Source: Notolepis coatsorum
Lineage: Eukaryota; Chordata; Actinopteri; Aulopiformes; Paralepididae
DNA: 64,000 nt
Assembly: GCA_963971535.1 (NCBI GenBank)
Contig: OZ020587.1
Coordinates: forward strand, 154,912,682 to 154,976,681
Reading direction: 5' to 3'
Position 1 is the first letter of the stretch. Each line of letters begins with the position of its first letter. Position numbers and translations under genes: made by a program. Below, in pieces: positions 27,231 through 54,391 of the stretch. The notes under the pieces are model-generated. The model made no database searches. It was not told where the DNA came from and saw nothing but the letters and a program-made list of their open reading frames with translations.

Positions 27231-27330
27231 CGTAAGGCTCAGAGCGGGACGCGATGCAAATACGAAATATAACGATAGGTTATGTAGATAACCTAGTTAT
27301 ATTAGTATTGGCTGAGCGTCCCGCTCTGCG
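27231..27330 (+). repeat. DIRS internal complementary region
   Basis: The left half is the complement of the element's first bases (CTCGTAAGGCTCAGAGCGGG ... CGAAATATAAC). The right half is the complement of its last bases (AGGTTATGTAGATAACCTAG...). Confidence 0.85.
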
Positions 27331-27379
27331 CGCCCTGAGTTCCCTCTTGAGGGATCTTTTCCTGGGACGGGTTTTTGGC

Positions 27380-27541
27380 GAGGAAGGGTGTTTCATGACC
27401 AGAGTCATGGTTATATGGGTGGTGGCCACCATAAGGGGCGGGGCCCCATACAGGTGGGGTGCATGTGTTTTTTATTCGTGGGAGATACATTAAGTATCAC
27501 AGGAGATAGAAGTATCTCGTAAGGCTCAGAGCGGGACGCTC
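27380..27541 (-). repeat. DIRS right inverted terminal repeat
   Basis: Inverted partner of 22,130-22,289. Confidence 0.9.
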
Positions 27542-27589
27542 AGCCAATACTAATATAACTAGGTTATCTACACTGTAAAAAGTAACCAG

Positions 27590-29808
27590 CACTTCACAAC
27601 ATTTAACAGTATTATCTTACAGTAACATATTGTAATTAAGGCCTCCTGTAATATCCCAACAAATACATGTAAAAAAGACAGTATCTTTTGATTTCACATT
27701 ATATTATTCTTATTTCACAATAAAATACCGCAATCAAAATCCTCTGTAATATCACATCAGATGTTGTAATCTCACAATAGCATACCAACATATCACATTA
27801 TATTATTCTTATTTCACAATAAGATACCGCAATCAAAATCCTCTGTAATATCACATCAGATGTTGTAATATCACAGTAGCATATGAATATTTCACATAAT
27901 TTATTTATTATTTCACAATAAAATATTGCAATCAAAATCCTCTGTAATATCACATCAGATGTTGTAATCTCACAGTAGCATATCAACATATCACATTATA
28001 TTATTCTTATTTCACAATAAGATATTGCAATTTTATACAAAACAAGATGAAAGTGTTTCTCTGTAATATCACATCAGATGTTGTAATCTCACAATAGCAT
28101 ATCAATTTATCACATTATATTATTCTTATTTCACAATCAAATATTGTAATTTTATACAAAACAAGACGAAAGTCTTTCTCTGTAATATCACATCAGATGT
28201 TGTAATCTCACAATAGCATATCAACATATCACATTATATTATTCTTATTTCACAATAAGATACCGCAATCAAAATCCTCTGTAATATCACATCAGATGTT
28301 GTAATCTCACAGTAGCATATGAATATTTCACATAATTTATTTATTATTTCACAATAAAATATTGCAATCAAAATCCTCTGTAATATCACATCAGATGTTG
28401 TAATCTCACAGTAGCATATCAACATATCACATTATATTATTCTTATTTCACAATAAGATATTGTAATTTCATACAAAACAAGACGAAAGTGTTTCTCTGT
28501 AATATCACATCAGATGTTGTAATCTCACAATAGCATATCAATTTATCACATTATATTATTCTTATTTCACAATAAAATATTGTAATTTTATACAAAACAA
28601 GATGAAAGTCTTTCTCTGTAATATCACATCAGATGTTGTAATCTCACAATAGCATATCAATTTATCACATTATATTATTCTTATTTCACAATAAAATATT
28701 GTAATTTTATACAAAACAAGATGAAAGTGTTTCTCTGTAATATCACATCAGATGTTGTAATCTCACAATAGCATATCAATTTATCACATTATATTATTCT
28801 TATTTCACAATCAAATATTGTAATTTTATACAAAACAAGACGAAAGTCTTTCTCTGTAATATCACATCAGATGTTGTAATCTCACAATAGCATATCAACA
28901 TATCACATTATATTATTCTTATTTCACAATAAGATACCGCAATCAAAATCCTCTGTAATATCACATCAGATGTTGTAATCTCACAGTAGCATATGAATAT
29001 TTCACATAATTTATTTATTATTTCACAATAAAATATTGCAATCAAAATCCTCTGTAATATCACATCAGATGTTGTAATCTCACAGTAGCATATCAACATA
29101 TCACATTATATTATTCTTATTTCACAATAAGATATTGTAATTTTATACAAAACAAGACGAAAGTGTTTCTCTGTAATATCACATCAGATGTTGTAATCTC
29201 ACAATAGCATATCAATTTATCACATTATATTATTCTTATTTCACAATAAAATATTGTAATTTTATACAAAACAAGATGAAAGTATTTCTCTGTAATATCA
29301 CATCAGATGTTGTAATCTCACAGTAGCATATCAACATATCACATTATATTATTCTTATTTCACAATAGAATATTGTAATTTTATACAAAACAAGACAAAA
29401 GTCTTTCTCTGTAATATCACATCAGATGTTGTAATCTCACAATAGCATATCAACATATCACATTATATTATTCTTATTTCACAATAAGATACCGCAATCA
29501 AAATCCTCTGTAATATCACATCAGATGTTGTAATCTCACAGTAGCATATGAATATTTCACATAATTTATTTATTATTTCACAATAAAATATTGCAATCAA
29601 AATCCTCTGTAATATCACATCACATTTTTTTATCTCACAGTAGCATATGAATATTTCACATAATTTATTTATTATTTCACAATAATATATTGTAATTTTA
29701 TTAAAAAAAACAAGACAAAAGTCTTTCTCTGTCATATCACATCAGATGTTGTAATCTCACAATAGCATATCAACATATCACATTATATTATTCTTATTTC
29801 ACAATAAG
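27590..29808 (+). repeat. Left subterminal tandem array of the CACTA element
   Basis: About twenty imperfect units of ~95-120 bp built around CTGTAATATCACATCAGATG and TTGTAATCTCACA. Two unit types alternate and form a ~674-bp higher-order period (compare 28,234 with 28,908). One unit type contains AAACAAGACGAAAGTCTTTC, which is also found in a LINE 3' UTR at 32,815. The recurring 63-aa minus-strand frames are repeat artefacts. Confidence 0.85.
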
Positions 29809-31326
29809 GTGTTATAAGTGGTTGCTAGGGTGTTTCTAGGTGGTTGCTGTTATGGGTGGTTGCTAGGGTGTTTCTAGGTGGTTGCTAGGGTGTTATAAGT
29901 GGTTGCTAGGGTGTTTCTATGGTTGCTAGGGTGTTATAAGTGGTTGCTAGGGTGTTTCTAGGTGGTTGCTAGGGTGTTATAGCTGGTTGCTAGGGTGTTT
30001 CTAGGTGGTTGCTAGGGTGTTTCTATGGTTGCTAAGGTGTTATAAGTGGTTGCTAGGGTGTTTCTAGGTGGTTGCTAGGGTGTTTCTAGGTGGTTGCTAG
30101 GGTGTTATGGGTGGTTGCTAGGGTGTTTCTAGGTGGTTGCTAGGGTGTTATAAGTGGTTGCTAGGGTGTTTCTAGGTGGTTGCTAGGGTGTTTCTAGGTG
30201 GTTGCTAGGGTGTTATGGGTGGTTGCTAGGGTGTTTCTAGGTGGTTGCTAGGGTGTTATAAGTGGTTGCTAGGGTGTTTCTACGGTTGCTAGGGTGTTAT
30301 AAGTGGTTGCTAGGGTGTTTCTAGGTGGTTGCTAGGGTGTTATAGCTGGTTGCTAGGGTGTTTCTAGGTGGTTGCTAGGGTGTTTCTATGGTTGCTAGGG
30401 TGTTATAAGTGGTTGCTAGGGTGTTTCTAGGTGGTTGCTAAGGTGTTTCTAGGTGGTTGCTAGGGTGTTATGGGTGGTTGCTAGGGTGTTTCTAGGTGGT
30501 TGCTAGGGTGTTATAAGTGGTTGCTAGGGTGTTTCTAGGTGGTTGCTAGGGTGTTTCTAGGTGGTTGCTAGGGTGTTATAAGTGGTTGCTAGGGTGTTTC
30601 TAGGTGGTTGCTAGGGTGTTATATATGGTTGCTAGGTTGTTTCTAGGTGGTTGCTAGGGTGTTATAAGTGGTTGCTAGGGTGTTTCTATGGTTGCTAGGG
30701 TGTTATAAGTGGTTGCTAGGGTGTTTCTAGGTGGTTGCTAGGGTGTTATGGGTGGTTGCTAGGGTGTTTCTAGGTGGTTGCTAGGGTGTTATAAGTGGTT
30801 GCTAGGGTGTTTCTAGGTGGTTGCTAGGGTGTTTCTAGGTGGTTGCTAGGGTGTTATGGGTGGTTGCTAGGGTGTTTCTAGGTGGTTGCTAGGGTGTTAT
30901 AAGTGGTTGCTAGGGTGTTTCTAGGTGGTTGCTAGGGTGTTATAAGTGGTTGCTAGGGTGTTTCTAGGTGGTTGCTATGGTGTTATAAGTGGTTGCTAGG
31001 GTGTTTCTAGGTGGTTGCTAGGGTGTTATAAGTGGTTGCTAGGGTGTTTCTAGGTGGTTGCTAGGGTGTTATATATGGTTGCTAGGTTGTTTCTAGGTGG
31101 TTGCTAGGGTGTTATATGTGGTTGCTAGGGTGTTTCTAGGTGGTTGCTAGGGTGTTATAAGTGGTTGCTAGGGTGTTTCTAGGTGGTTGCTAGGGTGTTA
31201 TATGTGGTTGCTAGGGTGTTTCTAGGTGGTTGCTAGGGTGTTATAAGTGGTTGCTAGGGTGTTTCTAGGTGGTTGCTAGGGTGTTATATGTGGTTGCTAG
31301 GGTGTTTCTAGGTGGTTGCTAGGGTG
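29809..31326 (+). repeat. GTTGCTAGGGTG minisatellite
   Basis: 1.5 kb of ~21-22-bp half-units, mostly paired as TTATAAGTGGTTGCTAGGGT and TTCTAGGTGGTTGCTAGGGT. Copies vary at the TATAAG/TATGGG/TATATG position. Confidence 0.95.
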
Positions 31327-31590
31327 AAAAGCATGGTGAAGAGGTCGTGACCCGGGTGGGCGGGGTCTGCCATGATCTTCCTCGCCCTCCTCAAGGCCCT
31401 GGAGGAATGTAGGGACTTGAGGGAGGGAAGGGGGCAGCCGATCACACTCTCCGCTGATCGTATCACCCGCTGCAGCCTTGTCCCTGACCGTGGCTGCAGG
31501 GAACCAGGTGATGATGGAGAGGGTGAGGATGGACTGGATGATGGCAGTGTAGAACTGGACCATCATAGTCCTCTGCAGCCTAAACTTCCC
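31327..31590 (-). pseudogene. LINE ORF2 C-terminal fragment
   Basis: The minus strand reads QFYTAIIQSILTLSIITWFP followed by ATVRDKAAA and, after a shift, a Pro/Arg-rich remainder. This is the conserved post-RT region of vertebrate LINE ORF2 proteins (a 'SILT...WF' block). Only ~85 codons remain. It lies directly against the minisatellite. Confidence 0.55.
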
Positions 31591-32915
31591 TAACAGGGGA
31601 GCCTATATCATTGGGACAGGTCTCTGCTCATCAGCAAGGAAAGGTACTGCTTTGGGGAGAAAGTATATCATCTATCACTACTGCCACCAGGTGTGGGAGG
31701 GTGCGGGTAGTATTAGGAGAAGTGTGGGTGTGTGGGGAATTACTGCGAGTCGCCCTGGAGGGCAAGAAGGACCAGCTCACTACCCCTAGGTTAGTAAATC
31801 CTATAGGCCCCATCCACCACTCTGCTAAAGCTCCACTCTACTCCTGCACTAAAGTCAGGGATTCAGTTGGACTCAGATCTGCATGCTGCGTTCCCCCTAC
31901 CTGGTGAACGTTCATAGGGATAATCCACCCTGCTACACAAACATCTCAAAACAAACTGGTCAGACTACATGCTTGACCTTACTCCTAGAACCCACCTCAC
32001 CCCTGCCCACTTTGACAACCTAGGATGGCTTAGAGACGACAGAGTACATCAACATGCAATGGGCCTGGTACCCAGATTCGGCTCAATCAGGGACTAAACA
32101 TGTTTCGCAATTATGCCAGATCAATGTGGAACGCCCTACCCAAAGCTGTAAAGGAATGTGAATCACTACCCACTTTCAAAACCACTCTCAAAGAACACCT
32201 ATACGGGAGACTGCAATTCGAAACTGGCCCCTGTAAATGTCCTAACCCAACCCCCTCCAATGTACAGTAAATTACCAACATGGTTTTGTCAATATTCCAA
32301 TGTGCTTGTATACAGTTGTACAGTGTCCACCCACCCCTCCTATACCCAACCTACCCAACCCCCCCACCCCACCCACCCAACCATCTCCAATGTACAGCCC
32401 CCCCCCCCCCACCCCACCCCACCTAATGTACGGTTTCATAAATGTATAGATGTAGCAGTACTGTCTGTATGTCATGTATGTGTGTGTGTGTGTGTGTGTA
32501 AATGAATGAACCGAAATATGTAGTTTGCTGATAGATACACAAAATGGGTTTATTTATGTTGATTTAATTTGGTTGTGTTGATGTTTCCATTTTTGCAAAA
32601 TGCATATTCTGTTTGTTTTACACAATAAGTCTATTGGTGTGTTGTGTGTGTGTAAGGGCAGGTGTAGAAGATTTTTTCTTCTTCCTGTTCCTTTCGGCCA
32701 TGGTATTTGGTGAATTATATGTACTGTTGGACTGTGGTAATTCCATGTACGAATAAATAAATGATGATGACGATGTATGTCCTGATGAATTGAAAGGTTA
32801 TGGGGGACCCTGATGTAAACAAGACGAAAGTCTTTCTCTGGTCTGCATCCCCTTAACAATTGTGTGTATTGAGCTGTACTGTATTGTACCCATTCTGCAA
32901 TCTGTTAATAAAGTT

Positions 32916-32959
<44 letters not shown>

Positions 32960-32970
32960 GTACCCGTTCT
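31591..32970 (+). mobile_element. LINE 3' fragment with UTR and (CAAT)n tail
   Basis: Around 31,980-32,210 broken frames read LGWLRDDRVHQHAMGLVPRF, then MWNALPKAVKECESLPTFK, a typical C-terminal end of an L2/CR1-type ORF2. A C-rich UTR, a (TG)n at ~32,480-32,499 and AATAAA at ~32,907 follow. The (CAAT)n tail runs ~32,917-32,958. The last 110 bases match the tail at the left edge of the window on the opposite strand. Confidence 0.65.
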
Positions 32971-33169
32971 GCACCTGCGTATTGCGTATAATGCATGATT
33001 AGGAGACATGTTGAGACTTGTCTAGGCTGCCTGCACACACACCAGCTTCCTGGGCGGGCGCCTCCCAGAATGCACTACACCTGTACCTTGCCTCCCAGAA
33101 TACCTGCACCTTCCTCCATTGTTGTATCAGCGTGTGCTGTATCTCTGCATCGTTAATCGACAATAAAAC
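32971..33169 (+). promoter_or_regulatory. Possible promoter and first exon of CACTA genes
   Basis: After the LINE tail comes a GC-richer patch with two CCTCCCAGAAT motifs (33,061 and 33,091); the first reads CCTCCCAGAATGCACTAC, close to the ZNF143/THAP11 promoter element known from vertebrate TATA-less promoters. It ends with a strong donor, AAAAC/GTGAGTATA, at 33,169/33,170. No initiator can be fixed. The role is inferred from position upstream of the transposase gene. Confidence 0.35.
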
Positions 33170-34149
33170 GTGAGTATATAGTGCATGATAAAGTCGATGG
33201 TGGATATTATTCTGTATCTATGATTTCGATTGCAAATGCCAGCGGAGTAGTGCTGTGTTCGTTTTTTACATGGTTATGCGTTTTTACACGTTATGTGTGC
33301 CTGCTGCTAATGTTAGCTGTTAGCTATGTCTGACCTCTGTTGGGTAATGCAACGTTGCCTACCAAACAACGGGACCACTGTGTTTTTTTTTATATTGCTC
33401 CTGGCTGTTCAAACTAATTTTACCGTGTGAAAGAGGGGAAAGTTGGTTCATTTCCACAAACTACCAGTGAAAAAGTGTTGTTCTGAACTGGAGCTATAGT
33501 ATAGCCAGCCATTTAGCTACCTGGCTACCTATATAGCTTCAGTTCAGCTAACTAGCTACATGCAGCATTTAGCCAGTGATGGGCAAGCTACTTGGAAAAT
33601 GTAGTAAGCTACACTAGTTACTCTCGATTAAATATAGCTCAACTACAATGGAAGCTATCCCCAGATAAATGTAGCAAGCTACACTACAAAAATAGCACAC
33701 TACTTTTTTTTTTTTTTTTTTTACTTTACTTTATGATCAGGTTTCCACCAAACAAATACAGTAGGCAGGCAAAAGAAAGTTCAGTTTGTTTATGAAACAA
33801 GCCCTCGGTCTGGCTTTTTGTGTCATCATTTTAACATGAACTTGTATTATGTACAAAATGTTAATAAAGTATGAGGAAATAACTGTGGAAACGTAATAAA
33901 TAAAAGGCCAAATCAATCAAATAAACACTAAAATATATACTCTCTCTATTGGAATGGAGACTTTTCAGCACAGGATAAACTGCCCACTTTATCAACCAAA
34001 ACTTCTTCAATATCAGAATTTTAACTAATAATAACTGTCTTACTGAATTTTACTATTATGCTACCATGTCTATACTACCACCAACTATGCTGTCTATACT
34101 ACAGTATGTACTCGGAGTATAACACTCAAGCTCGACACTGCTAGACAAA
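33170..34149. other. Intron-like sequence, includes a repeat fragment
   Basis: AT-rich. At ~33,573 starts CAGTGATGGGCAAGCTACTT, like one terminus of a fish hAT MITE. It runs ~150 bp to a T-run at 33,703-33,722; no second terminus was found. Otherwise nothing is recognised. Confidence 0.4.
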
Positions 34150-36258
34150 CAATACTAATTTATAGACTATTTGTTTCCTGTGCAGTACACCTGAGATTAA
34201 TCACCTCATGCAGTACTGTTTGACATGAATTTATGCGTCGTTCCCTGTGTTTTTTTTCTTTCCTCTTGCCTCCCTCCCTTGTCCTAGGGCCTGCCTACTG
34301 ATTGCCTATGCCTGAATCTTTCCGGCCGACAAGGCGTACAGGACAGTAATCTGCACTGACGTCTCCCCAGATCCATGCACGGATTGCTTCTTGGTTGTAT
34401 AGGTAGGCCTATATGCAACACAGATCGTAGTTTATAGACTATATTTGTTTCCTGTGCAGTACACCTGAGATTAATCACCTCATGCAGTACTGTTTGACAT
34501 GAATTTATGCGTCGTTCCCTGTGTTTTTTTTTTGTCCTAGGGCCTGCCTACTGATTGCCTATGCCTGAATCTTTCCGGCCGACAAGGCGTACAGGACAGT
34601 AATCTGCACTGACGTCTCCCCAGATCCATGCACGGATTGCTTCTTGGTTGTATAGGTAGGCCTATATGCAACACAGATCGTAGTTTATAGACTATATTTG
34701 TTTCCTGTGCAGTACACCTGAGATTAATCACCTCATGCAGTACTGTTTGACATGAATTTATGCGTCGTTCCCTGTGTTTTTTTTCTGTCCTAGGGCCTGC
34801 CTACTGATTGCCTATGCCTGAATCTTTCCGGCCGACAAGGCGTACAGGACAGTAATCTGCACTGACGTCTCCCCAGATCCATGCACGGATTGCTTCTTGG
34901 TTGTATAGGTAGGCCTATATGCAACACAGATCGTAGTTTATAGACTATATTTGTTTCCTGTGCAGTACACCTGAGATTAATCACCTCATGCAGTACTGTT
35001 TGACATGAATTTATGCGTCGTTCCCTGTGTTTTTTTTCTGTCCTAGGGCCTGCCTACTGATTGCCTATGCCTGAATCTTTCCGGCCGACAAGGCGTACAG
35101 GACAGTAATCTGCACTGACGTCTCCCCAGATCCATGCACGGATTGCTTCTTGGTTGTATAGGTAGGCCTATATGCAACACAGATCGTAGTTTATAGACTA
35201 TATTTGTTTCCTGTGCAGTACACCTGAGATTAATCACCTCATGCAGTACTGTTTGACATGAATTTATGCGTCGTTCCCTGTGTTTTTTTTCTGTCCTAGG
35301 GCCTGCCTACTGATTGCCTATGCCTGAATCTTTCCGGCCGACAAGGCGTACAGGACAGTAATCTGCACTGACGTCTCCCCAGATCCATGCACGGATTGCT
35401 TCTTGGTTGTATAGGTAGGCCTATATGCAACACAGATCGTAGTTTATAGACTATATTTGTTTCCTGTGCAGTACACCTGAGATTAATCACCTCATGCAGT
35501 ACTGTTTGACATGAATTTATGCGTCGTTCCCTGTGTTTTTTTTCTGTCCTAGGGCCTGCCTACTGATTGCCTATGCCTGAATCTTTCCGGCCGACAAGGC
35601 GTACAGGACAGTAATCTGCACTGACGTCTCCCCAGATCCATGCACGGATTGCTTCTTGGTTGTATAGGTAGGCCTATATGCAACACAGATTGTAGTTTAT
35701 AGACTATATTTGTTTCCTGTGCAGTACACCTGAGATTAATCACCTCATGCAGTACTGTTTGACATGAATTTATGTGTCGTTCCCTGTGTTTTTTTTCTGT
35801 CCTAGGGCCTGCCTACTGATTGCCTATGCCTGAATCTTTCCGGCCGACAAGGCGTACAGGACAGTAATCTGCACTGACGTCTCCCCAGATCCATGCACGG
35901 ATTGCTTCTTGGTTGTATAGGTAGGCCTATATGCAACACAGATCGTAGTTTATAGACTATATTTGTTTCCTGTGCAGTACACCTGAGATTAATCACCTCA
36001 TGCAGTACTGTTTGACATGAATTTATGCGTCGTTCCCTGTGTTTTTTTTCTTTCCTCTTGCCTCCCTCCCTTGTCCTAGGGCCTGCCAACTGATTGCCTG
36101 CCTGAATCGTTCCGGCCGACAAGGCGTACAGGACAGTAATCTGCACTGACGTCTCCCCAGATCCATGCACGGATTGCTTCTTGGTTGTATAGGTAGGCCT
36201 ATATGCAACACAGATCGTAGTTTATAGACTATTTGTTTCCTGTGCAGTACACCTGAGA
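34150..36258 (+). repeat. 253-bp tandem array with exon-like modules
   Basis: Eight copies at 253-bp spacing (module starts near 34,288, 34,541, 34,794, 35,047, 35,300, 35,553, 35,806 and 36,080), almost identical to each other. Each has a T8-9 tract and TCCTAG acceptor, then a 115-bp module starting GGCCTGCC, then GTATAG/GTAGGC as donor. The module has stops in all plus frames where read, so if spliced it is untranslated. The first and last copies have a longer pyrimidine tract than the middle ones. The repeated 64-aa minus-strand frames are not supported as genes. Confidence 0.8.
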
Positions 36259-36461
36259 TTAGCCTATAGTATACGTTCATAATCTGCATGCAAACTGTAA
36301 TCTCTCCTTTCTCTGGTTTCCTTTTTTCTAGGTCATCAGAGAGGTCTTTAACATACAGTATCCTGTTCAGTGGCATCTTGTTCAGTGAGGCAGCCAGGCT
36401 AACCAGTGTTCAGTGTGAGGCAGATGTAATGATTGGGTAGGTAACTATAGCACGCACAACA

Positions 36462-39122
36462 ATGTTCCACTGTAAATATATTCGATGTCAGCATGTGTCT
36501 GAGAGTGTGCATACCTTTGTCCAGCACGCGCAGCTCCACAGTAACGCCCCCAATTATCTTTATCAGTGCGGGATACCTGACTGCTCACAGAGGTTCAGAA
36601 AACACGCAGCACTGAGATCTCATATATATAGGCTGCATAGGTGCTACCTGCAAGCTGGTCAGCCGCCTAGACCTCCTAGATCAGCTCTACCACCTGACAC
36701 ATCCTTGAAATGTGTGCTTGAGGCTTGTGCATTTAAGTGTGACACTTTAGCCTCTCTTATCAAGCATTTGAAGACACACATAAAGGGAGGAATGGAATCG
36801 CCATGTCCATTTAGAGGTTGTGATTGCAGGTTCACAAACGTAATGACTTTTGCTTCACATATTTCCAGGAAACACAAGGATTCAGTTTTAGATGACTTGG
36901 TACTAGACAAGTCTACAGAGTCATTGCCAGAACCCAGTCAGACGTATTCAGAAGCTGCTGGTGAACATGATGAACCAGAAGTGCCATTAGCTGTGGACGA
37001 AACCCTTTTTTTACATAACCTTACACTTTTCTATTTGAAATTGCAATCTAAGCTACTCTTACCGGCAAGCACCATACAAACCATTATTGAGGACTTTCAA
37101 ATTGCTCATGAACTTGGCCTGTCTCATACACTTAACGTTCTGAGTGAGAAATTGAAGAAACTTGGAATCCCTCAGGCCACTATAAGCAGCATGGTTGATG
37201 AAGTGAACAGAGATGATCTACTCACACTTTTTAACAAGGGAAGACTCAGTACAGATACAAAGAGGAAGTCTGCTTTTAAAGAGTGTTTCAACCATGTTCA
37301 TCCCGTGCCTTTGCTCTTGGGCAATGATGAAAATGACAAAGAATGCTTTGCTCAGTATGTACCTATACATGAGACATTGGTGACACTGTTCAAAAACGAG
37401 TCTCTACGAGAACAGTATAACATGACACGTTTGCAGCAATCTACTGATGCTGTCTATCAGGATGTCAAGGATGGAGAAGGATTTCAAAGTAATCCAATGT
37501 TGAAAGCTGACCCTTCCTCACTTGGTTTGATACTGTACCAAGATGCCTTCGAGGTTGTTAATCCACTGGGCTCAGGGAAGAAAAAGCACAAGGTCTTAGC
37601 TGTTTACCTAACCCTGACTGACATCTTGCCTCACAATAGATCTTCTATAGATCAAATGCAACTTGTTCTCTTATGTAGGGAGCAGGACTTTAAGTATTTT
37701 GGGCTAAAAAAGGTTTTTGCACATCTGATTGAGGACCTCAAAATCCTGGAGGAGAGAGGTGTAGTCATATCTGATGGCACTGTACTAAAGGGCTCTTTGG
37801 TTGCCATTGCAGGAGACAACTTAGGATCCCATTCTATTGGGGGATTTTTAGAAAACTTCAGTCGATCTAAATATTTTTGTCGCTACTGTCAGGTACAGAG
37901 AGAGGATTTTGTGAAGAATCCAGTGTTGTGTGGTGCCACAAGAACGGTCCAATCATACACAAGTAATTTGCAAGACCTGGAAACTAGTACCACAGACTCT
38001 GTATGCGGTATCAAGTTTGACTCTCCTTTCAACCAGCTTTCTCATTTCCATGTTTGCCAGCCTGGCCTCCCACCATGTCTAGGCCATGATTTATTTGAGG
38101 GAGTCATGGCTTATGACCTTCCTTTATATATTCGCCATTTAGTCCAGGAGAATCATTTTACTTACCTGCAGTTAAATCGGTGCAAAAACAAGTTCCGATA
38201 TGAAGGGAACGATGGTAGGGACAAACCAGCAGACCTCTCTCCCAGCAGTGACAAACTAAGTGGGCATGCAGTTCAAAACTGGTGTTTCCTTAGATTACTC
38301 CCTCTCTTGGTGGGTGGCAGGATTAAAGATCCCTGTGACAATGAGGTGTGGCAGCTCATTTTGCAGCTGAGAGAGATGGTTGAGCTTATCTGTGCACCAG
38401 TCATTACAGAAGGCCAGGTAGCATATCTGAAAGTCATCACAGAGGAGTACATATGCAACAGGAAAAGGCTCTTCCCCAATGCCCCCCTGAGGCCAAAGCA
38501 TCACTATATTGGCCATTATCCAGATCTAATCATCCACTTTGGCCCACTTATTCGCCTGTGGACTCTGCGGTTTGAAAGCAAACACACTTTTTTCAAACAG
38601 TGTGCCAGAAAATTGCACAATTTCAAAAATCTGTGCAAAACACTAGCAGAGAGACACCAACTCCTCCAGGCCTACCTGAGTGCGGGAAACTTGTTTCCTC
38701 CTGTTATACAGGTAGAGAAGGGGACTGCCTTTTATTTGGATGATTACAACAACAAGATCAGGGCATCTGTAGCCAGTTGTCAATTTGAGTCTCAGTCTGC
38801 AGTGGCTTGTAACAATGTTACAGTCAAAGGCACAGACTACAGAAAGGGGATGTTCATCTTGTTTGGGAACAGTGATGAAGGACTTCACATGGGGAAGATT
38901 ATGCTGGTCATTGTTGCCCAAAACTCTGTCCACTTTGTCTCAGAGAAACACATTTGTGTGAAGTTGATTGACATGGGTGTGTACTGTGACTTAGGAGTGG
39001 CCCAAGAGGATTACGTGTGCATTAAGCACAAAGATTTACTGGACTACTATCCTCTTCCAGCATACAACGTGCACGATCAGATGCTTATTGCGCTCCACCA
39101 TTCTTTTCCAGGAGCAGTTTAA
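36462..39122 (+). CDS. CACTA-type DDE transposase with C2H2 zinc fingers
   Basis: 886 codons, uninterrupted, starting at ATG after ACAACA. N-terminal ~140 residues carry four C2H2-type fingers (starting near residues 3, 34, 82 and 112), likely DNA binding. The middle is helical and less distinctive. The catalytic core shows AGDNLGSH (Asp452), a CRYC knuckle (Cys473, Cys476), CLGHDLFEGV (Asp543) and LRFESKH (Glu705). This order D, CxxC, D, E is that of CACTA/Mirage/Chapaev transposases (TNP2-like). The enzyme would cut at the CACTG ends in the nucleus. A 5' UTR exon ending near GGGTAG/GTAACT (36,439) and the 253-bp modules upstream may feed its transcript. The codons look intact, with all core residues present, so the gene may be functional or very recently so. 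Family assignment rests on motifs seen, not on a search. Confidence 0.8.
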   Translation: MFHCKYIRCQHVSESVHTFVQHAQLHSNAPNYLYQCGIPDCSQRFRKHAALRSHIYRLHRCYLQAGQPPRPPRSALPPDTSLKCVLEACAFKCDTLASLIKHLKTHIKGGMESPCPFRGCDCRFTNVMTFASHISRKHKDSVLDDLVLDKSTESLPEPSQTYSEAAGEHDEPEVPLAVDETLFLHNLTLFYLKLQSKLLLPASTIQTIIEDFQIAHELGLSHTLNVLSEKLKKLGIPQATISSMVDEVNRDDLLTLFNKGRLSTDTKRKSAFKECFNHVHPVPLLLGNDENDKECFAQYVPIHETLVTLFKNESLREQYNMTRLQQSTDAVYQDVKDGEGFQSNPMLKADPSSLGLILYQDAFEVVNPLGSGKKKHKVLAVYLTLTDILPHNRSSIDQMQLVLLCREQDFKYFGLKKVFAHLIEDLKILEERGVVISDGTVLKGSLVAIAGDNLGSHSIGGFLENFSRSKYFCRYCQVQREDFVKNPVLCGATRTVQSYTSNLQDLETSTTDSVCGIKFDSPFNQLSHFHVCQPGLPPCLGHDLFEGVMAYDLPLYIRHLVQENHFTYLQLNRCKNKFRYEGNDGRDKPADLSPSSDKLSGHAVQNWCFLRLLPLLVGGRIKDPCDNEVWQLILQLREMVELICAPVITEGQVAYLKVITEEYICNRKRLFPNAPLRPKHHYIGHYPDLIIHFGPLIRLWTLRFESKHTFFKQCARKLHNFKNLCKTLAERHQLLQAYLSAGNLFPPVIQVEKGTAFYLDDYNNKIRASVASCQFESQSAVACNNVTVKGTDYRKGMFILFGNSDEGLHMGKIMLVIVAQNSVHFVSEKHICVKLIDMGVYCDLGVAQEDYVCIKHKDLLDYYPLPAYNVHDQMLIALHHSFPGAV

Positions 39123-39325
39123 ACAGGAAAGGGAGGATATGACAGACGTGAGGACAGACGTAAGTGGAGCAGGATATCAAGTAACCTTAAGATAGTTGAT
39201 TTTGTATTGTTGATTGTATAGCGAGCACATGTTGGCAGTTAACCGCATATAGTGCACTGCAAACAGACAAGTAGGGAATATGCACAAACTGATTCATGAT
39301 TGACCCTAATCAATGAGACTAGGTA

Positions 39326-42300
39326 ATGGAAGATATAAAGGAAGCAGTTTGGTCATATTTACCGGGCCTCCCTGATGACTTACTGACCACCCTACTTGAG
39401 GATCTTGGAGTGGAGAGTGTCGAAGATCTGGCCTTAATGGAGAGGGTGGATCTGGTCCGACACCTCAAACCAATCCAGTGTCGGAAGCTGATGGATGGTC
39501 TTAAGAAAGGTAAATTCATATTTAGACTTGCGTGACACTTGGAACTATGCCCTTGGAACATTGGCATAACTGTTTTTGTCCCTTCTAGGGTTAGTAACCC
39601 TTAATATGGAGGTGCTCCCTCCCCATCCAATTGCTTCAAGTTCCCCAACACATCCAATTGCTTCAAGTTCCCCAACAACGAGCTCTGTGAACACTCTGTC
39701 CTCTCCGAACACCTCTATGCAATCTCTGTTGTGCAGCCCCCCAAGCACTCCAAACTCTTCACAGCCTGGCAGCGCATGGCATGTAGACTTTTGTGTCAAC
39801 TGGAACCGGATGTCAACAGCCATTCAACGTGCAGTGGAAAAAGAACAGAGACCAAAGCCAGATGAGAGAAGGGCCTTTGTGAACGCTTTGGTGGATCAGA
39901 TGATGGAGCACGAGCACAACCCAACCAGAACCACGTGCCTCAGTATCGTCCGAACAATTGTCAGGAGCCATCCTGACACCTTTGCTGACATTAGCAGGCG
40001 AGGTGAAATGGTTGGAGACGGATGCCACTCTCTTCTCCAACAAGTAAAAACAAGAGTGGAGTATAAAAGCAGGAACAACACTCTGGCTAGACGCCGCAGA
40101 GGCAGAGAGGAAAGACGGCCCACTGGCATGGCAGGAGAGTCCAGGCTGACGAGAGGTCCTGTTGACCAATACGGGTAGGGGTGGCAAAACAAACGGCGCC
40201 AGTGTCCTCTCCATTCACGCTCGCAGCAATTAGGGGTTAAAGTGGCACTGCCAATGCTCGACTAACTTAGGTTATTTGGATTGAATGTTTAAATTATGTG
40301 TAGATTTTTTTTTAATATAATTTCTAGGGCTGTCCCTGACTAAGGATTTGGATAGTCGACTATGATTGGCCAAAATGTGCAGTTAGTCGACAAAAATAAA
40401 ATAAAAAGTAGAATATATATATATATTTATATATATTTTTTTTTTATCATTCCATTTGGGCTGTGGGGGGTGCTTAATGTCTGAAGGCTTCTTGTCCTCT
40501 GCAAAAGCATGCAATTGGTCCACTGATGGATACATCTTGATATTTGTCTAGTCTAGTGTGTTCATTAGATGGGTGAAATCCTCTTTCAGTGCTTCTGTGC
40601 CTGTTTTCGTAGGCAGTTAGCCTCTGGTATGCGTGCCATTAGCGTTAGAGGCCTTTTTTCTTTTGGAAAGAATGATAAAAAAATATATATATTATAATTT
40701 TTCTTTTTTTATGTATTCCACTAAGAGGTTGCCTATGATTCCTTCCTATCCCTAGGTGTGTGAGGTGGGGCCCAGCAAGCTTACCGGACGGGGAGACAGA
40801 GGAAACCATGGCGGCTTTGAAAAGGGATCTGCGGAACATCTACTCAGGCATGCAATCTACTTTACTTTTGGTGAATTGACACCATGAATAAATATCCCAC
40901 ATTAAGCAAAAAGGCCACTTTAATATTCAGAATGAGTAATACAATTAAAGGTTTGCCACTCAATTTCCCAGATGTGGCAACATCAAATCTAATTGTTGTT
41001 ACTTGGTTTGTATGTCTGTACACAGAGGAAGGGATGGGTGGGACAGCGAGAGCAGAACTTCTGATGGAGAGGACCTACGTCATCCTGCGGCGTTACTTGA
41101 ATAAAATGCCTCCACCAACGATGGTGGCGGTCAAAGAAGAATGGCCTTTTCTCTTCTCTCAGACGGGGCTTTTCTCCCACTTTGGCCTCCTGACAGACAC
41201 CGATGTCCTTCAAAAGATCAAAGATGCCCTGTGTCATCGAGGACGGACCATCCTGCAGTTCTGCCAGAAACTGGACAACCCGAAGATCAGGGATGTTCTG
41301 GCCAGATATCATCCAGAGGTTTCGGAGATCAGTGCCTGTATTGTCCTGCTCCTTATGGTGTACTTCAAGGAGCCTACGGAGAAACTACTGCTCGAAGTTG
41401 ATGTACGTTTATTTAAATATTAAAATATTTGAAATGCGAGTGATTACATTAGGGGCGACTGAAGCTCAGTTGGTAGAGATGGTCGTTCATCGACCGTAGG
41501 GTTGGTGGTTTGAATCCTGGCTCTGACTGTCCGCATGTCGGAAGTGTCCTTGAGCAAGACACTTAACCCCCAAGTTGCTCCAAATGGGCCGAGCTGATGT
41601 GTGGTGAGCTGTAGTGCGTGGATTAGCTTATCTTCATCCTTTCATAATGTTAAATCTGCTATTGTGTGTTACTTTGTTGCAGACCTGTGCCACTGTTGCT
41701 GATGTGAATACTGCAGCACTCCCAAGCACCCCCTGTTTGATAATTCAAGGTAATAATGTTCAGGGATGAGCTTGTGTTCCTTTGCATCGAGGGGGAAAAT
41801 CTGACCGAAGGCAGTTTGTGATACGGCACACATATGACGCTTATAAATAATATCCTGAGCTGGCATGTCTCATGTTCAACTTTGTCAGTGCTGTAAAGTT
41901 GAAACCTTTTTAAATCTTAGACAAACAAAACACTTTGCTTTCATGAAATATTGTAAGCCGTCATTTGAGGCTTTATAAAAGCAGCACAATGAACACAAAT
42001 CTGTCAGTGCGACCTCATCTTAAATAAGAGACAGCATTGCTTGTTGTAAGAGAGGCAGAGTTGATTTGGCAAAAATATATATATATATATGCATTTTTCT
42101 TTTTCTTTTTAATAATCGAATTTTATTTTCATATTCAAATCCCATGCCCATCGAACGAAGCTTTGAAGTATTTAAGACAGCCTTAGTTCTGTGTCATGTC
42201 CTTGCAGGAATGTATACCTATCCACAACAACGCATGACGGGGTATCTGTTCATTTCAGGTGACGCAATGCAGCCTTCTGGATGGATGCTATCCATCGAGG

Positions 42301-42888
42301 GAGAAGTTGTGATGGGCCCACACCCATTATTTTTGCATGGGGTAGCTGCTTTATTCACCAGCTACTATGTCTTCAACCTGGAGTATCCTTCCGTTGGATC
42401 ATCCACACTTGAGTTCATCCAAAGGTATTTTAACACTCTGAACACATGATCAATGTCATCAGTAAGACTTATCATGCAAAGACTATCTGGCTATTAAGTC
42501 CATGCCTTTCTACAGAGGCCATAAAGTAGATTAAATGCTTTGAGTATGAAGCCTGGAACCAACTATGTGAATTGGGACCACACCATCACTTGATGTTGCT
42601 GCTATCTTGTTAAGAAATTGACATAATGGTTTAATTCACATTATAGTATGGCTTCAAAATTCGGATGAGTAAACATTATGTTAGAGGTACCATGAAAAAA
42701 CACAGGTGAGCACCTTGATAAATGCTGAGTCTATTTAAAACTGAAACGTATCTTTGCTTATTAACAGGTTCTTCTTGGGCATCAACCCGGAGAAAGGCTC
42801 CAGGGCAAAGAAGCGAAGCGCCATCAACCCTCAAGTGACCACCCTTTTTCGTAAGCTCATAGACTTTGAATGGTCTGCATCTGCATAG
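39326..42888 (+). CDS. SAM-domain accessory protein of the CACTA element, 7 exons
   Basis: Seven coding exons join in frame to 530 codons: 39,326-39,509; 39,589-40,174; 40,756-40,847; 41,026-41,402; 41,683-41,749; 42,259-42,424; 42,768-42,888 (TAG). All introns are GT-AG except intron 3, whose donor reads TCAG/GCATGC, a GC-AG intron. Residues ~3-62 form a SAM-like five-helix domain (SYLPGLPDDLLTTLLEDLGV, then KPIQCRKLMDGLKK). A Ser/Pro/Thr linker follows. Then comes a conserved-looking helical block (RRAFVNALVDQMMEHEHNPT), a CVRWGPASLPDGE segment, and a C-terminal region with KEEWPFLFSQTGLF and WMLSIEGEVVM. The layout resembles the SAMD3-like proteins of fish. SAM domains bind proteins or RNA. 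Lying 200 bp behind the transposase on the same strand, it may correspond to the accessory end-binding gene of plant CACTA elements; that role is inference. Confidence 0.75.
41452..41632 (+). mobile_element. V-SINE-type tRNA SINE in intron 4
   Basis: A tRNA-like head with A-box (CTCAGTTGGTAGAG) and B-box (GGTTTGAATCC), then the fish SINE core TCCTTGAGCAAGACACTTAA. It lies in the intron between exons 4 and 5 of the SAM gene. Confidence 0.85.
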
Positions 42889-43235
42889 ACAATCGTCCTT
42901 CTCCTGTCGTCCCCTGACGTGAACACCCTTCTTCGTAAGTAAGCTCATAAACTTTGGTCTGCAAAGACAATTGTCCTTCTCCTGTCGTCCCCTGACGTGA
43001 ACACCCTTCTTCGGAAGCTCATAGACTTTGAATGGTTTGCAAAGACAATTGTCCTTCTCCTGTCGTCCCCTGACGTGAACACCCTTCTTCGGAAGCTCAT
43101 AGACTTTGAATGGTCTGCATCTGTATAGACAATCGTCCTTCTCCTGTCGTCCCCTGACGTGAACACCCTTCTTCGGAAGCTCATAGACTTTGAATGGTTT
43201 GCAAAGACAATTGTCATGCTCCTGTCGTCCCTGCG
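42838..43235 (+). repeat. 78-84-bp tandem repeat made from the SAM gene's last exon
   Basis: Five units. The first contains the last ~16 codons and stop of the SAM gene (ACCCTTTTTCGTAAGCTCAT ... TCTGCATAG) plus ~35 bases after it. Later units vary by a 6-bp CATCTG indel and by AAGTAAG at the start. Confidence 0.85.
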
Positions 43236-43329
43236 CCTCTTTTGTTATTTTGAGTGCCTCTTTTGTTCTTTTGAGTGAGTGCATAAAGTGTATTCATTAG
43301 TTCCATTTTCGGGTAAGACCTGGAAGTAC

Positions 43330-43465
43330 TAGTTTCATGGCGACAGTGGCTCGGGAGGTAGAGCAGTCGTCTGGCAATCCGGAGATTCCCGCTCCTCCCC
43401 GGGCAGCGTGTCGATGTGTCCTTGAGCAAGACACTTAACCCCTACATGCTCCCGTCGGTGTGTGA
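43330..43465 (+). mobile_element. tRNA-SINE fragment
   Basis: GTGGCTCGGGAGGTAGAGCA (A-box-like) and TCCTTGAGCAAGACACTTAA (fish SINE core). It is a different subfamily from the copy at 41,452. Confidence 0.7.
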
Positions 43466-43549
43466 ATGGGTCAAATGTGCACAAATTGTAAAAAAAAGAA
43501 AAAAAACAGCCATTTACCATTTTACTTACGAATATTATTACTTTGTCTT

Positions 43550-45870
43550 AGTTTTGCCGTTTTGAGCAGTGTTGACCAGCAGTTTATAAAATAATATTTA
43601 AAATGTTTATTAGCAACGCCGAGCTTTCTAACCATTGCGTTTCTCTGTACGAAACTCTCGTGCAACTGTGTACCTTTGAATTTTCTCTGTGATACTTGTA
43701 CAACGAGCGTTTCGCAGAGGACCAGTTCTTCAGAGTTAATATGGGATTTTCCTATGGGTCAAATGTGCACAAATTGTAAAAAAGAAAACAGCATTTACCA
43801 TTTCAAGAATAAGAATATAATTCTTTGTAATATAATTCTTTGTAATAATTCTGTCTTTTGACAATAAAATCCCATAATTAACTCTGAAGAACTGGCGAAA
43901 CGCTCGTCGTACAAGGTGCATCAGTCAGCTAAAGCCGTTTTGAGCAGTGTTGACCAGAAGTTTATAAAATAATATTTAAAATGTTTATTAGCAATGCCGA
44001 GCTTTCAAACCATTGCGTTTCTCTGTCTGAAACCCTCATGCAACTGTGAGTACCTTTGAATTTTCTCTGCGATACTTGTACAACGAGCGGGATTTTCCTA
44101 TGGGTAAAATGTGCACAAATTGTAAAAAAGAAAACAGCCATTTACCATTTCAAGAATAAGAATATAATTCTTTGTAATAATTCTGTCTTTTGACAATAAA
44201 ATCCCATAATTAACTCTGAAGAACTGGCGAAACGCTCGTCGTACAAGGTGCATCAGTCAGCTAAAGCCGTTTTGAGCAGTGTTGACCAGAAGTTTATAAA
44301 ATAATATTTAAAATGTTTATTAGCAATGCCGAGCTTTCAAACCATTGCGTTTCTCTGTCTGAAACCCTCATGCAACTGTGAGTACCTTTGAATTTTCTCT
44401 GCGATACTTGTACAACGAGCGGGATTTTCCTATGGGTAAAATGTGCACAAATTGTAAAAAAGAAAACAGCCATTTACCATTTCAAGAATAAGAATATAAT
44501 TCTTTGTAATAATTCTGTCTTTTGACAATAAAATCCCATAATTAACTCTGAAGAACTGGCGAAACGCTCGTCGTACAAGGTGCATCAGTCAGCTAAAGCC
44601 GTTTTGAGCAGTGTTGACCAGAAGTTTATAAAATAATATTTAAAATGTTTATTAGCAATGCCGAGCTTTCAAACCATTGCGTTTCTCTGTCTGAAACCCT
44701 CATGCAACTGTGAGTACCTTTGAATTTTCTCTGCGATACTTGTACAACGAGCGGGATTTTCCTATGGGTAAAATGTGCACAAATTGTAAAAAAGAAAACA
44801 GCCATTTACCATTTCAAGAATAAGAATATAATTCTTTGTAATAATTCTGTCTTTTGACAATAAAATCCCATAATTAACTCTGAAGAACTGGCGAAATGCT
44901 CGTCGTACAAGGTGCATCAGTCAGCTAAAGCCGTTTTGAGCAGTGTTGACCAGAAGTTTATAAAATAATATTTAAAATGTTTATTAGCAATGCCGAGCTT
45001 TCAAACCATTGCGTTTCTCTGTCCGAAACCCTCATGCAACTGTGAGTACCTTTGAATTTTCTCTGCAATACTTGTACAACAAGCGTTTCGCAGAGGACCA
45101 GTTCTTCACAGTTAATATGGGATTTTCCTATGGGTAAAATGTGCACAAATATGTAAAAAAAGAAGAAAAAAAAGCAGCCATTTACCATTTTACTTACGAA
45201 TATGATTACTTTGTCTTAGTTTTGCCGTTTTGAGCAGTGTTGACCAGCAGTTTATAAAATAATATTTAAAATGTTTATTAGCAACGCCGAGCTTTCAAAC
45301 CATTGCATTTCTCTGTTCGAAACTCTCGTGCAACTGTGAGTACTTTTGAATTTTCTCTGCGATACTTGTACAACGAGCGTTTCGCAGAGGACCAGTTCTT
45401 CAGAGTTAATATGGGATTTTCCTATGGGTAAAATGTGCACAAATTGTATATAAAAGAAGAAAGAAAACAGCCATTTAACATTTCAAGAATAAGAATATAA
45501 TTCTTTGTAATATAATTCTGTCTTTTGACAATAAAATCCCATAATTAACTCTGAAGAACTGGCGAAACGCTCGATGTGCAAGGCGCATCAGTCAGCTAAA
45601 GCCGTTTTGAGCAGTGTTGACCAACAGTTTATAAAATAATATTTAAAATGTTTATTAGCAACGCCGAGCTTTCAAACCATTGCGTTTCTCTGTCCGAAAC
45701 TCTTGTGCAACTGAGTACCTTTGAATTTTCTCTGCGATACTTGTACAACGAGCAGGATTTTCCTATGGGTAAAATGTGCACAAATTGTAAAAAAGAAAAC
45801 AGCCATTTACCATTTCAAGAATAAGAATATAATTCTTTGTATATAATTACTTGTAATAATTCTGTCTTTT
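43550..45870 (+). repeat. 332-bp tandem array
   Basis: About seven units beginning GCCGTTTTGAGCAGTGTTGA; the middle ones repeat at exactly 332 bp (43,934, 44,266, 44,598, 44,930). Some units keep a second copy of CGTTTCGC..AGTTCTTC, giving an internal inverted repeat (43,692-43,755 against 43,862-43,918). The other units have lost it by deletion. Confidence 0.85.
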
Positions 45871-46056
45871 GACAATAAATGCCGGCTTACCTCGTGTAAT
45901 TATTTGTAATAATTCTGTCTTTTGACAATAAATGCTGGCTTACCTCATGTAATTATTTGTAATAATTCTGTCTTTTGACAATAAATGCCGGCTTACCTCG
46001 TGTAATTATTTGTAATAATTCTATGTCTTTTGACAATAAATGCTGGCTTACCTCAT
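45845..46056 (+). repeat. 53-bp tandem repeat
   Basis: Four copies of a unit with AATTATTTGTAATAATTCTG, TTTTGACAATAAATG and GGCTTACCTC. Each holds an AATAAA, so the array could act as a poly(A) region for the CACTA genes. Confidence 0.8.
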
Positions 46057-46080
46057 TTGTGCGTTTGGACTGTTGTTTTT

Positions 46081-46608
46081 AATGTACAATAGCCTACGTG
46101 CATTTTTGAAGTCCAGCGCAGTATACTTCCTGGCAGAAGCTCACACTTTGGTTTTCTGTCATGATTAATCACGTCATCCAATAGTATTTGACAGGAAACT
46201 ATTGTATGAGCTTCCTCCAGAAGTATACTGGAGCTGGGGACTATACAGTTATGCATACCATTGTAAATTGACTGTTATTTTGCCAAATTATATAATATAA
46301 TAATTATTATTATTCAATTATTTTGTTGGCAAGTCTGAAAAGTAATGCAAAAGACTTGCCAACAAAATAATTGAAAAATAATAATTATTATATTATATAA
46401 TTTGGCAAAATAACAGTCAATTTACAATGATAGACATGCATAACTCTATAGTCCCCAGCTCCAGTATACTTCTGGAGGAAGCTCATACAATAGTTTCATG
46501 TCAAGATACAATAGGATGACGTGATTAAACACAACAGGAAACCAAAGTGTGACCTTCAGGAAGTGTACTGGAGCTGGACTACAAAAATACATGTAGGCTA
46601 TTGTAAAT
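46081..46608. repeat. Long palindrome (fold-back)
   Basis: Arms of ~255 bp (46,081-46,335 and 46,353-46,608) with a 17-base loop. The inner arms are nearly perfect (TGTTGGCAAGTCT / AGACTTGCCAACA), the outer part imperfect. It could be a fold-back MITE inserted in the CACTA end region. Confidence 0.85.
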
Positions 46609-47456
46609 ACACAATACATTGTTGTAATATATATACAACAAAATAATGTGATATTACAGTAATTTCTTACAATTTGATGTTGTGAAGTCACAATACATTG
46701 TTGTAATATATATACAACAAAATAATGTGATATTACAGTAATTTCTTACAATTTGATGTTGTGAAGTCACAATACATTGTTGTAATATATATACAACAAA
46801 ATAATGTGATATTACAGTAATTTCTTACAATTTGATGTTGTGAAGTCACAATACATTGTTGTAATATATATACAACAAAATAATGTGATATTACAGTAAT
46901 TTCTTACAATTTGATGTTGTGAAGTCACAATACATTGTTGTAATATATATACAACAGAATAATGTGATATCACAGTAATTTCTTACTGTTAGAAGTTGTG
47001 AAATTACAACAATGTATTGTACTACCATTACTGTGAAATTACAACACATTGCTGTGAAGCCATTCACAGTAAATTATTGTGAATCTTACTGTAAAAGTCA
47101 TGCAAAATATTGCCAGTAATTTATTGTAATATCACAGTAATTTCTTACAGTATGAAGTTGTGAAATTACAACAATGTATTGTACTACCATTACTGTGAAA
47201 TTACAACACATTGCTGTGAAGCCATTCACAGTAAATTATTGTGAATCTTACTGTAAAAGTCATGCAAAATATTGCCAGTAATTTATTGTAATATCACAGT
47301 AATTTCTTACAGTATGAAGTTGTGAAATTACAACAATGTATTGTACTACCATTACTGTGAAAGTACAACACATTGCTGTGAAGCCATTCACAGTAAATTA
47401 TTGTGAATCTTACTGTAAAAGTCATGCAAAATATTGCCAGTAATTTATTGTAACTT
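46609..47456 (+). repeat. Right subterminal tandem arrays of the CACTA element
   Basis: Five 79-bp units (CACAATACATTGTTGTAATA ... TGTGATATTACAG) are followed by about three ~162-bp units (GAAGTTGTGAAATTACAAC...). The 12-mer TGTGATATTACA is the reverse complement of TGTAATATCACA in the left array. The inner units also show it in the forward sense. Confidence 0.85.
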
Positions 47457-48186
47457 TAGGGTGAAACATTTTACAGTGTACATAACCGTTAAAATGAAAA
47501 CTTGGCCCACGGTGGAATGAGTTTGAGACCCCTGGTCTATCCCTTTAAAAGAAAAATTACTTTTACGTTTTAGTACTTAAGTACATTTAAAAGTAGGACT
47601 TTTTGTACTTTTACTCAAGTGTGTTTTTAGCCAGATACTTTGACTTTTACTTGAGTCAGATATTGAGACGGTACCCATACTTTCACTTAAGTATAATTTC
47701 TGTGTACTTTTTACACCCCTGGTAATAAGTGTGCTTGTGTGTAAGTCACCTCATCTGAATCTGAGCGACAGCAACAGGACATCATACTGTATTTGTATTT
47801 ATTGGTTTAAAATACAGAGACAGTGTGTAACTGAGGGGTTACAAAACCCTGGCTGTATTAAAGATTGTGATAGATTAAACCACTGCTAATTATCATTATT
47901 ATTACTTGCCAGAAAGTACAGTTATAATATGGCAGACACTCAGAATAATACGGCACGGTGACAAAGAAATATCATTTAGAATATTTATTATTATGCAGCA
48001 ATTGTACAGAATGGGAATTAAGGGTTGCGCTTGTATGGCGAAGAATATGAATAAAGTCAGTCAGTAGCAAAGTCAGTTGCAATGAATAATTCCTAAGCTG
48101 GGATACTAGACTAAACGCCGCCTGGCGTAGGGTGGCACCAGGGCCGCCTGGGAGAAATGCGAGGCCCTGTGCGAGATTTAACGCGA

Positions 48187-53300: not shown

Positions 53301-54391
53301 GACCGCACTGCTCGCACACCCCCTGAGGCGGCCCTGGGTGGCACTATAGTGGGCAAACGATGGTACCGCTGGAGACAGGGGGGTATCCTCCCAGAGATGT
53401 AAGCTCTGGAGGAAAGAAGAATGTTCGGATACTCAGTCTGTTCAATTGAAGAAAGGGGTTCTCGTATAGATCCAGTCCTTGTAATCCAAATGCTCAGCAA
53501 CAAAGCAATAGCTGTAATCCAATTGCCCGATAGCAATGACGATAGCCAGCCAGCTTCGGTCCACGAAGCTAGCCCGAGGTAAGATCTTCAAGGTGGTTAA
53601 ATCCAAACGACAGTGGGTATTAACGAGGCTCTTCTCCACAGTAGTACGTTCCACAATCACTATAATCCAACCAATACTGGTTCTGCAATCACCGCCGTAG
53701 GTTCCAATATGCACATGTCCAGTAGGTCCACGACTAGGCCCTCCTCGTGTATTGGCACTAACTACTAAGTCCACGCACACTTGCTAAGGTTGCACTAGTT
53801 ACTAAACGAACGAACTGCTTGGTAATGTCACACACGAACGAACACGATTCACACTAAATGACGACTCTTTACTTCACATTAAGCTAAGTCGAACTTGACG
53901 TTATTGCATTAACTCTGACACTTTTACTATTCACTTCGCACGTTAGGTTCACAACACTCTGTTTAGACTAACTGCTTCACACTACATTAGAATCACACTA
54001 CCGCTGCTGCGCCTTCCACAATATATATACTTAAATGGCTTTCTAGTGCCAAGCCTCAGCTCTCGTCTCGAATCAATGCGCCGGCACCAGGCATGTTCCA
54101 ACATGCCCAGACTCGCCTTTGAACCTGACTTCAGGGGCGCGTTGTCTGGCGCCGAGAACGTCAAGGGCGTTATCCAATGAGGAAAGTAATATTACTAGGA
54201 TTCAAACGCAGGCTTAAAGGGAGATAACTTATATATATAAATAATATACAAGGTATATAAAACAATAAATGTAGATTCTCAGCTTTAATCTGGCCCTTCA
54301 CAACAGCCGCCTCCTAATTAGTCCGCACCTAATTAGTTAAGGGAGACAGATTAATTGCTCCATTGATGCTTGTTGTGAGGAGTAGGTCAAT

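Follow-up and report, generated by a model that had tools for sequence, protein, structure and literature searches.

The 64,000-nucleotide stretch of the Notolepis coatsorum genome analysed here (contig OZ020587.1, positions 154,912,682 to 154,976,681 of the forward strand; hereafter the window) contains a DNA transposon with two apparently intact genes, tandem arrays near both ends and in its interior, and a hypervariable 9-bp zone inside its right end (Table 1). We read it as an autonomous cut-and-paste element of the CMCT clade (CACTA/EnSpm-Mirage-Chapaev-Transib), most likely of its animal EnSpm (CACTA-like) branch, with a probability of about 0.88. An earlier note on the same DNA had proposed a transposon of ∼19.9 kb with matching termini and a TA duplication, and the ends, flanks, empty site and genome copies all agree with it. 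The other structures that it had described are likewise present, namely subterminal arrays (joined by internal ones), an uninterrupted 886-codon reading frame with C2H2 fingers, and a second gene spliced in frame, which supports two apparently intact genes.

Table 1. Coordinates of the transposon and its features within the window
Feature	Position	Strand	Basis
Whole transposon, 19,908 bp	27571..47478	.	ends, TA duplication, empty site
TA target duplication, left copy	27569..27570	.	flanks read
Left terminal inverted repeat, CACTGTAAAA	27571..27580	+	termini read, genome matches
Left subterminal tandem arrays, 99/119-bp units	27694..29808	+	
43-bp tandem array	29805..31326	+	
253-bp tandem array, length and version vary among element copies	34280..36261	+	
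Transposase gene, one exon as read, 886 amino acids	36462..39122	+	open frame, motifs, 30 copies
Second gene, 7 exons, 547 amino acids	39326..42888	+	gene model
Exons of the second gene	39326-39509, 39589-40174, 40756-40847, 41026-41402, 41683-41749, 42208-42424, 42768-42888	+	
332-bp internal tandem array	43829..45848	+	
Right subterminal arrays, 79-bp and 162-bp units	46610..47453	+	
Hypervariable 9-bp zone inside right end, AAACATTTT here	47464..47472	+	13 alleles in 100 listed of 135 places
Right terminal inverted repeat, TTTTACAGTG on +	47469..47478	-	termini read, genome matches
TA target duplication, right copy	47479..47480	.	flanks read

The terminal 10-mer and its reverse complement each occur once within the window and form a perfect terminal inverted repeat (TIR) of 10 bp only, inward of which the two ends diverge. 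Flanks were read on both sides of 20 further copies: 18 carry TA/TA, one TG/TG and one the mismatched pair TG/AA, and none matches at the third base. The target duplication is therefore 2 bp long, with a strong preference for TA. At 30 left-end loci (window included), the adjoining dinucleotide is TA in 25, TG in three and CA in two.

The boundaries of the transposon are demonstrated by its empty site. The host assembly (3.42 Gb, 4,787 contigs) was searched with a 35-mer that joins the window flanks by a single TA: the match is exact at all 100 places listed, and 8,633 places are found at up to three mismatches (reversed control, 0). Since the listed matches are mostly inverted pairs ∼265 bp apart, the insertion lies within one arm of a short and very abundant inverted-repeat element, which spans 27278-27570 and resumes at 47481. 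The opposite arm, at 27278-27312, retains an intact, unoccupied site (35/35 bases). Moreover, another member of the repeat holds a second copy of the transposon (left end L051, right end L080) at a site offset by 9 bp, and each of the two loci keeps the empty site of the other.

Further copies are numerous. Genome counts of ends and gene segments were made with up to two mismatches and include the window. By itself, the 10-mer end cannot serve as a genome-wide marker (27,714 places versus 15,096 for its reversed control), but longer probes are found at 216 places for the 52-bp left end, 108 for the 45-bp right end, 195 for a 50-mer at the putative catalytic Glu of the transposase core and 251 for a 51-mer in exon 6 of the second gene, each with a control of 0. 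A same-strand right end lies 16,264-30,253 bp (median 19,886) from 64 of the 100 listed left ends, window included; this pairing used 81 of the 100 listed right ends, the others being mostly on contigs outside the left-end list. The expectation that the ends bound other copies thus holds for the 52-bp and 45-bp ends, though not for the 10-mer by itself. That these copies are segmental duplications or assembly duplicates, instead of transposition products, is extremely improbable. Tandem copies do exist, such as left ends ∼6.6 kb apart on C7 and cores ∼7.8 kb apart on C1, but the 30 left-end loci have different flanks, two of them lying at different positions of the same repeat, and 25 of the 30 end in TA. 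Copies are also spread over many contigs, paralogous empty sites exist, and duplication is refuted for the 19 two-ended copies that display a target duplication.

Internal tandem duplications were seen at two places: the tandem left ends of C7 are located at 153100373, 153106979 and 153113542, and the three catalytic cores of C1, seemingly within one element, at 76357344, 76365115 and 76372917. A distinct candidate, a giant element delimited by CACTGTAAAA/TTTTACAGTG pairs 39.6-41 kb apart (C1, 7.2-7.9 Mb), was rejected. The three pairs (out of six) that were read at both ends have CT versus AA as flanks and are all the same sequence, which points to a tandem segmental duplication with chance 10-mers and not to a transposon. 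In that region (C1, 7.2-8.0 Mb), evenly spaced chance 10-mers reveal about six tandem copies of a ∼135-kb segment.

Tandem repetition is also prominent inside the element. The array units at both ends are AT-rich, and the left array has 12-mers in common with the reverse-complemented right array. Internal arrays (43, 253 and 332 bp) make up ∼5.5 kb of the element length, and the 253-bp units differ in number and version between copies. Array lengths vary between copies: of ten 600-base stretches placed at left ends by exact spacing, only two held a left end.

In the protein encoded by the uninterrupted transposase frame, C2H2-like fingers begin at residues 4, 36, 84 and 115 (four in all), ahead of a core that displays, in order, D361 (YQDAF), D452 (GDNLG), C473RYC476, H680HYIGH685 and E705 (RFESKH). 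CMCT transposases are defined by C(2)C and H(3-4)H motifs located after the second D and before the last E (PMC12730594). The order D, D, CxxC, HxxxxH, E agrees with this definition and supports placement in the clade, C473xxC476 and H680xxxxH685 being found between D452 and E705, a correspondence at the motif level only. The catalytic triad is most likely D361-D452-E705, as the clade motifs would put D452 in second place among the acidic residues, with D361 a likely candidate for the first place. The residues pointed out in the earlier note (Asp452, CxxC at 473-476, Asp543 and Glu705) all exist, and D452 and E705 are kept in the predicted triad; under this assignment Asp543, which belongs to GHDLFEGV, would fall outside it, and the first position most likely goes to D361. 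Motifs of the GHDLFEGV type are conserved in CACTA proteins.

The second gene follows on the same strand. Its model splices in frame through six introns, five of them GT-AG and one GC-AG, and its product may resemble the SAMD3-like proteins of fish genomes. Exons 1-2 and their splice sites are intact in 28 of 30 copies, window included; the reading of other copies covers these two exons and the exon-6 51-mer, exons 3-7 being otherwise known from the window only. By eye, a tandem array at 42828-43231 (78/162-bp units) repeats pieces of the last exon and its 3′ flank. Also by eye, 41450-41640 looks like a tRNA-derived short interspersed element (SINE) and 43345-43400 like a fragment of the same; tRNA (ARAGORN) and Rfam scans of the transposon reported nothing, including in these SINE-like stretches.

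The element jumped very recently. Of 2,494 first-look candidates, 51 were scored in the protein search (the window among them); all 51 transposase matches are full length, 50 of them without a stop. In the 30 transposase genes that were read, window included and ranked by protein similarity to it, every frame is open, the mean pairwise difference is 1.53 of 2,661 bases and 15 coding sequences are identical. Their variants comprise 11 non-synonymous and 12 synonymous distinct codon changes, from which selection is not read given this ranking. The left terminal 123 bp is identical in 26 of 30 loci, which were picked independently of the protein on condition that their first 52 bp depart from the window by no more than one mismatch; the window is among the other four, and L060 departs after the first part. 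Finally, 53 of 4,182 body sites vary among 25 copies and only four of these variants are common to two or more copies, indicating a star-like burst with little shared history.

The recent activity suggested in the earlier note is therefore borne out by many near-identical full-length copies with open genes, and the element may still be able to jump. It is conceivable, with less than even chances in our view, that the burst is over, the copies being young but silenced or their protein no longer functional. A stop does occur in one of the 51 scored copies, and likely active CMC-EnSpm families are silenced by PIWI-interacting RNAs in cichlids (PMC11753138), but 30 open frames out of 30 and the near absence of shared mutations point to very recent jumps. 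The notable feature is indeed the number of near-identical full-length copies of ∼20 kb with both genes apparently open. They would lend themselves well to building a vertebrate CACTA transposition assay and to addressing the role of the second gene.

As for the mechanism, the zinc fingers and core of the 886-residue protein would recognise both the 10-bp ends and the arrays next to them as binding sites, and its D-D-E core would cut both ends and excise the element. The latter would then join across a TA dinucleotide with a 2-bp stagger, giving rise to the 2-bp duplication. The spliced second gene probably encodes an accessory factor for binding or excision; in plant CACTA elements, excision and transposition are likewise aided by a second product (PMC4158355).

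In sharp contrast to the near-identical bodies, the right end holds a hypervariable stretch of nine bases, which is flanked by GGGTG and ACAGTG and occupies positions 7-15 counted from the terminus. A search requiring these fixed flanks with a free gap of 6-13 bases returned 135 places (control, 0), and the gap is exactly nine in all 100 listed. These 100 comprise 13 alleles: AAAAATTTT (29), AAACATTTT (19, the window allele), AACATTTTT (18), AAAATTTTT (11), AAAAATGTT (8), AACAATTTT (4), AAATTTTTT (3), AAAATGTTT (3) and five singles. Among the 25 copies with both body and zone, ten alleles occur, the mean pairwise difference per site is 0.143 in the zone versus 0.00112 in the body (ratio 127), and five of nine zone sites vary versus 53 of 4,182 in the body (Fisher p = 5e-8). 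Five of the 30 copies are not part of this comparison: L026 is rearranged, L036 and L029 are one and the same element, L018 has no listed right end, and L027 and L038 were omitted although their right ends are listed. Zone alleles follow neither the array classes (27 loci) nor the few shared substitutions. Outside the zone, 8 of 100 listed right ends differ in a freer search (up to two mismatches to the window).

The same type of search at the left end gave 257 places, of which 100 are listed: 60 have one allele, 27 another and 13 fall into the remaining seven, which means that variation in the left zone does exist in the family at large. However, 47 of 49 left ends paired with a typed right end have the same left allele while their right zones show 12 alleles; the comparison used 57 right ends of C1-C7, and since some tandem left ends share one right end, not all pairs are independent. 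Four pairs of zone alleles are reverse complements of each other, an excess that is suggestive only (p = 0.04, treating single-step variants of the backgrounds AAAAATTTT and AAAATTTTT as independent). The variability could stem from repair, through local template switching or flipping at the A/T tract, or from copies that exchange their right ends. More speculatively, and rather improbably, transposition itself might rewrite the fixed 9-bp zone, the AT tract being re-synthesised or flipped end for end at the jump or its repair. Rewriting at each jump would yield near-identical copies with different, partly reverse-complement alleles on the right and an invariant left end. Whatever its origin, the zone is a cheap and directly testable clue to right-end processing.

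Beyond the right boundary of the transposon, two pairs of direct repeats with 98-99% identity were noticed, at 53336-54212 / 58491-59374 (∼5 kb apart) and 47826-48138 / 58187-58499 (∼10 kb apart). The first pair surrounds a DUF5641 protein gene on the minus strand, and the repeats perhaps belong to a retroelement with long terminal repeats.

With regard to classification, the element has CACTG..CAGTG ends, of the CA..TG type found in the CMCT clade along with duplications of 2-5 bp, and a 2-bp duplication in 19 of 20 copies. It carries subterminal repeat arrays at both ends, a defining trait of the CACTA family. Its duplication differs from the 5 bp of Transib/RAG-like elements and from the plant-type 3 bp (the third base agrees in none of 20 copies). 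With Tc1/mariner-like elements, the TA duplication is the sole common feature, and no DDE_1/DDE_3-type profile is listed by Pfam up to an E value of 10. Its terminus is one base off CACTA, and that of the zebrafish CMC-EnSpm element, CACTC, also departs from it (PMC11202377).

Several points weigh against our reading. Scanning Pfam-A with the 886-residue protein (hmmscan, up to an E value of 10) gave only weak zinc-finger and unrelated models and no Transposase_21/TNP2, so the profile check proposed in the earlier note leaves its claim unsupported, although no other family is named either. PDB sequence searches, which place neither protein, retrieved zinc fingers and chance matches only, with no relative, and a Pfam search of the second protein found no domain. 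The first Asp (D361) is assigned from motif reasoning alone, and, the 30 copies being nearly identical, the conservation of motif residues among them carries little information. The ranking by protein similarity implies that the figures for intactness and identity describe the best copies and not all of them. Moreover, 36 of the 100 listed left ends lack a partner among the listed right ends; as matches on both sides are the listed ones only, an unpaired left end does not mean a truncated element. Finally, the flanks of one copy in 20 are mismatched (L057/L084), the splice sites of exons 1-2 are not intact in L022 and L026, and the GC-AG intron is predicted and unproven. An NCBIfam search of the transposase yielded nothing useful and a viral_contigs scan found no relative. 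No profile places the protein; its classification is based on the order of its motifs together with the termini and the target duplication.

Mirage uses a TA target, and the element could belong to a TA-specific CMCT branch (fungal ESTA-like or Mirage) and not to animal EnSpm/CACTA. ESTA elements are defined by TA duplications and carry TET/JBP genes (PMC12730594), and TA is duplicated here in 18 of 20 copies while plant CACTA elements make 3-bp duplications (PMC4158355). Besides TA, the likeness to ESTA and other CMCT lineages extends to CA..TG ends (in most of them) and to C(2)C and H(3-4)H, but by Pfam neither protein here has a TET/JBP domain, and ESTA is described from fungi (PMC12730594). 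In addition, the animal CACTA-related TRC elements also make 2-bp duplications (7 of 14 copies; PMC1636069), and the element is similar to fish CMC-EnSpm in its CACT start and its two genes (PMC11202377). Assignment to a TA-specific branch hence appears unlikely, and we retain the animal EnSpm branch.

Among known systems, Spm is one alternatively spliced unit, whereas two separate genes are found here. Plant CACTA (En/Spm) elements otherwise share a DDE transposase with a second product, the CACT start and cut-and-paste transposition, but differ by their 3-bp duplication (PMC4158355). Animal TRC/SmTRC1 elements of the CACTA superfamily resemble ours in their 2-bp duplication, in empty sites recovered via insertions into repeats and in an internal tandem-repeat region; SmTRC1 has CCC ends, a 54-bp TIR and a Transposase_21 domain (PMC1636069), versus CACTG ends, a 10-bp TIR and no profile match here. 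CMC-EnSpm makes up 4.69% of the zebrafish genome (PMC4746887), and CACTA families of 16-20 kb exist in a red alga (PMC6431247). Large fish elements with two proteins, 2-bp duplications in animals and red-alga families of such length being in print, the kind of element is already known. The view that large CACTA elements are little described in vertebrates is only partly right, as zebrafish and horse mackerel are both reported to have large CMC-EnSpm elements with two full proteins (PMC11202377). Our literature search, to which most subscription journals and (as far as known) Repbase reports were outside scope, found no comparable fish CACTA burst, SAM-type second gene or hypervariable end, which lends weak support to their novelty. 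The closest likeness in size, CACT-type ends, two full proteins and full-length copies is indeed with these fish elements (PMC11202377). Compared by description only, the zebrafish TIR (CACTCAAAAAAAT, 13 bp) is different from the one found here, and full copies number three in zebrafish and six in horse mackerel (alternate haplotype), whereas 64 of the 100 left ends listed here belong to paired full-length copies.

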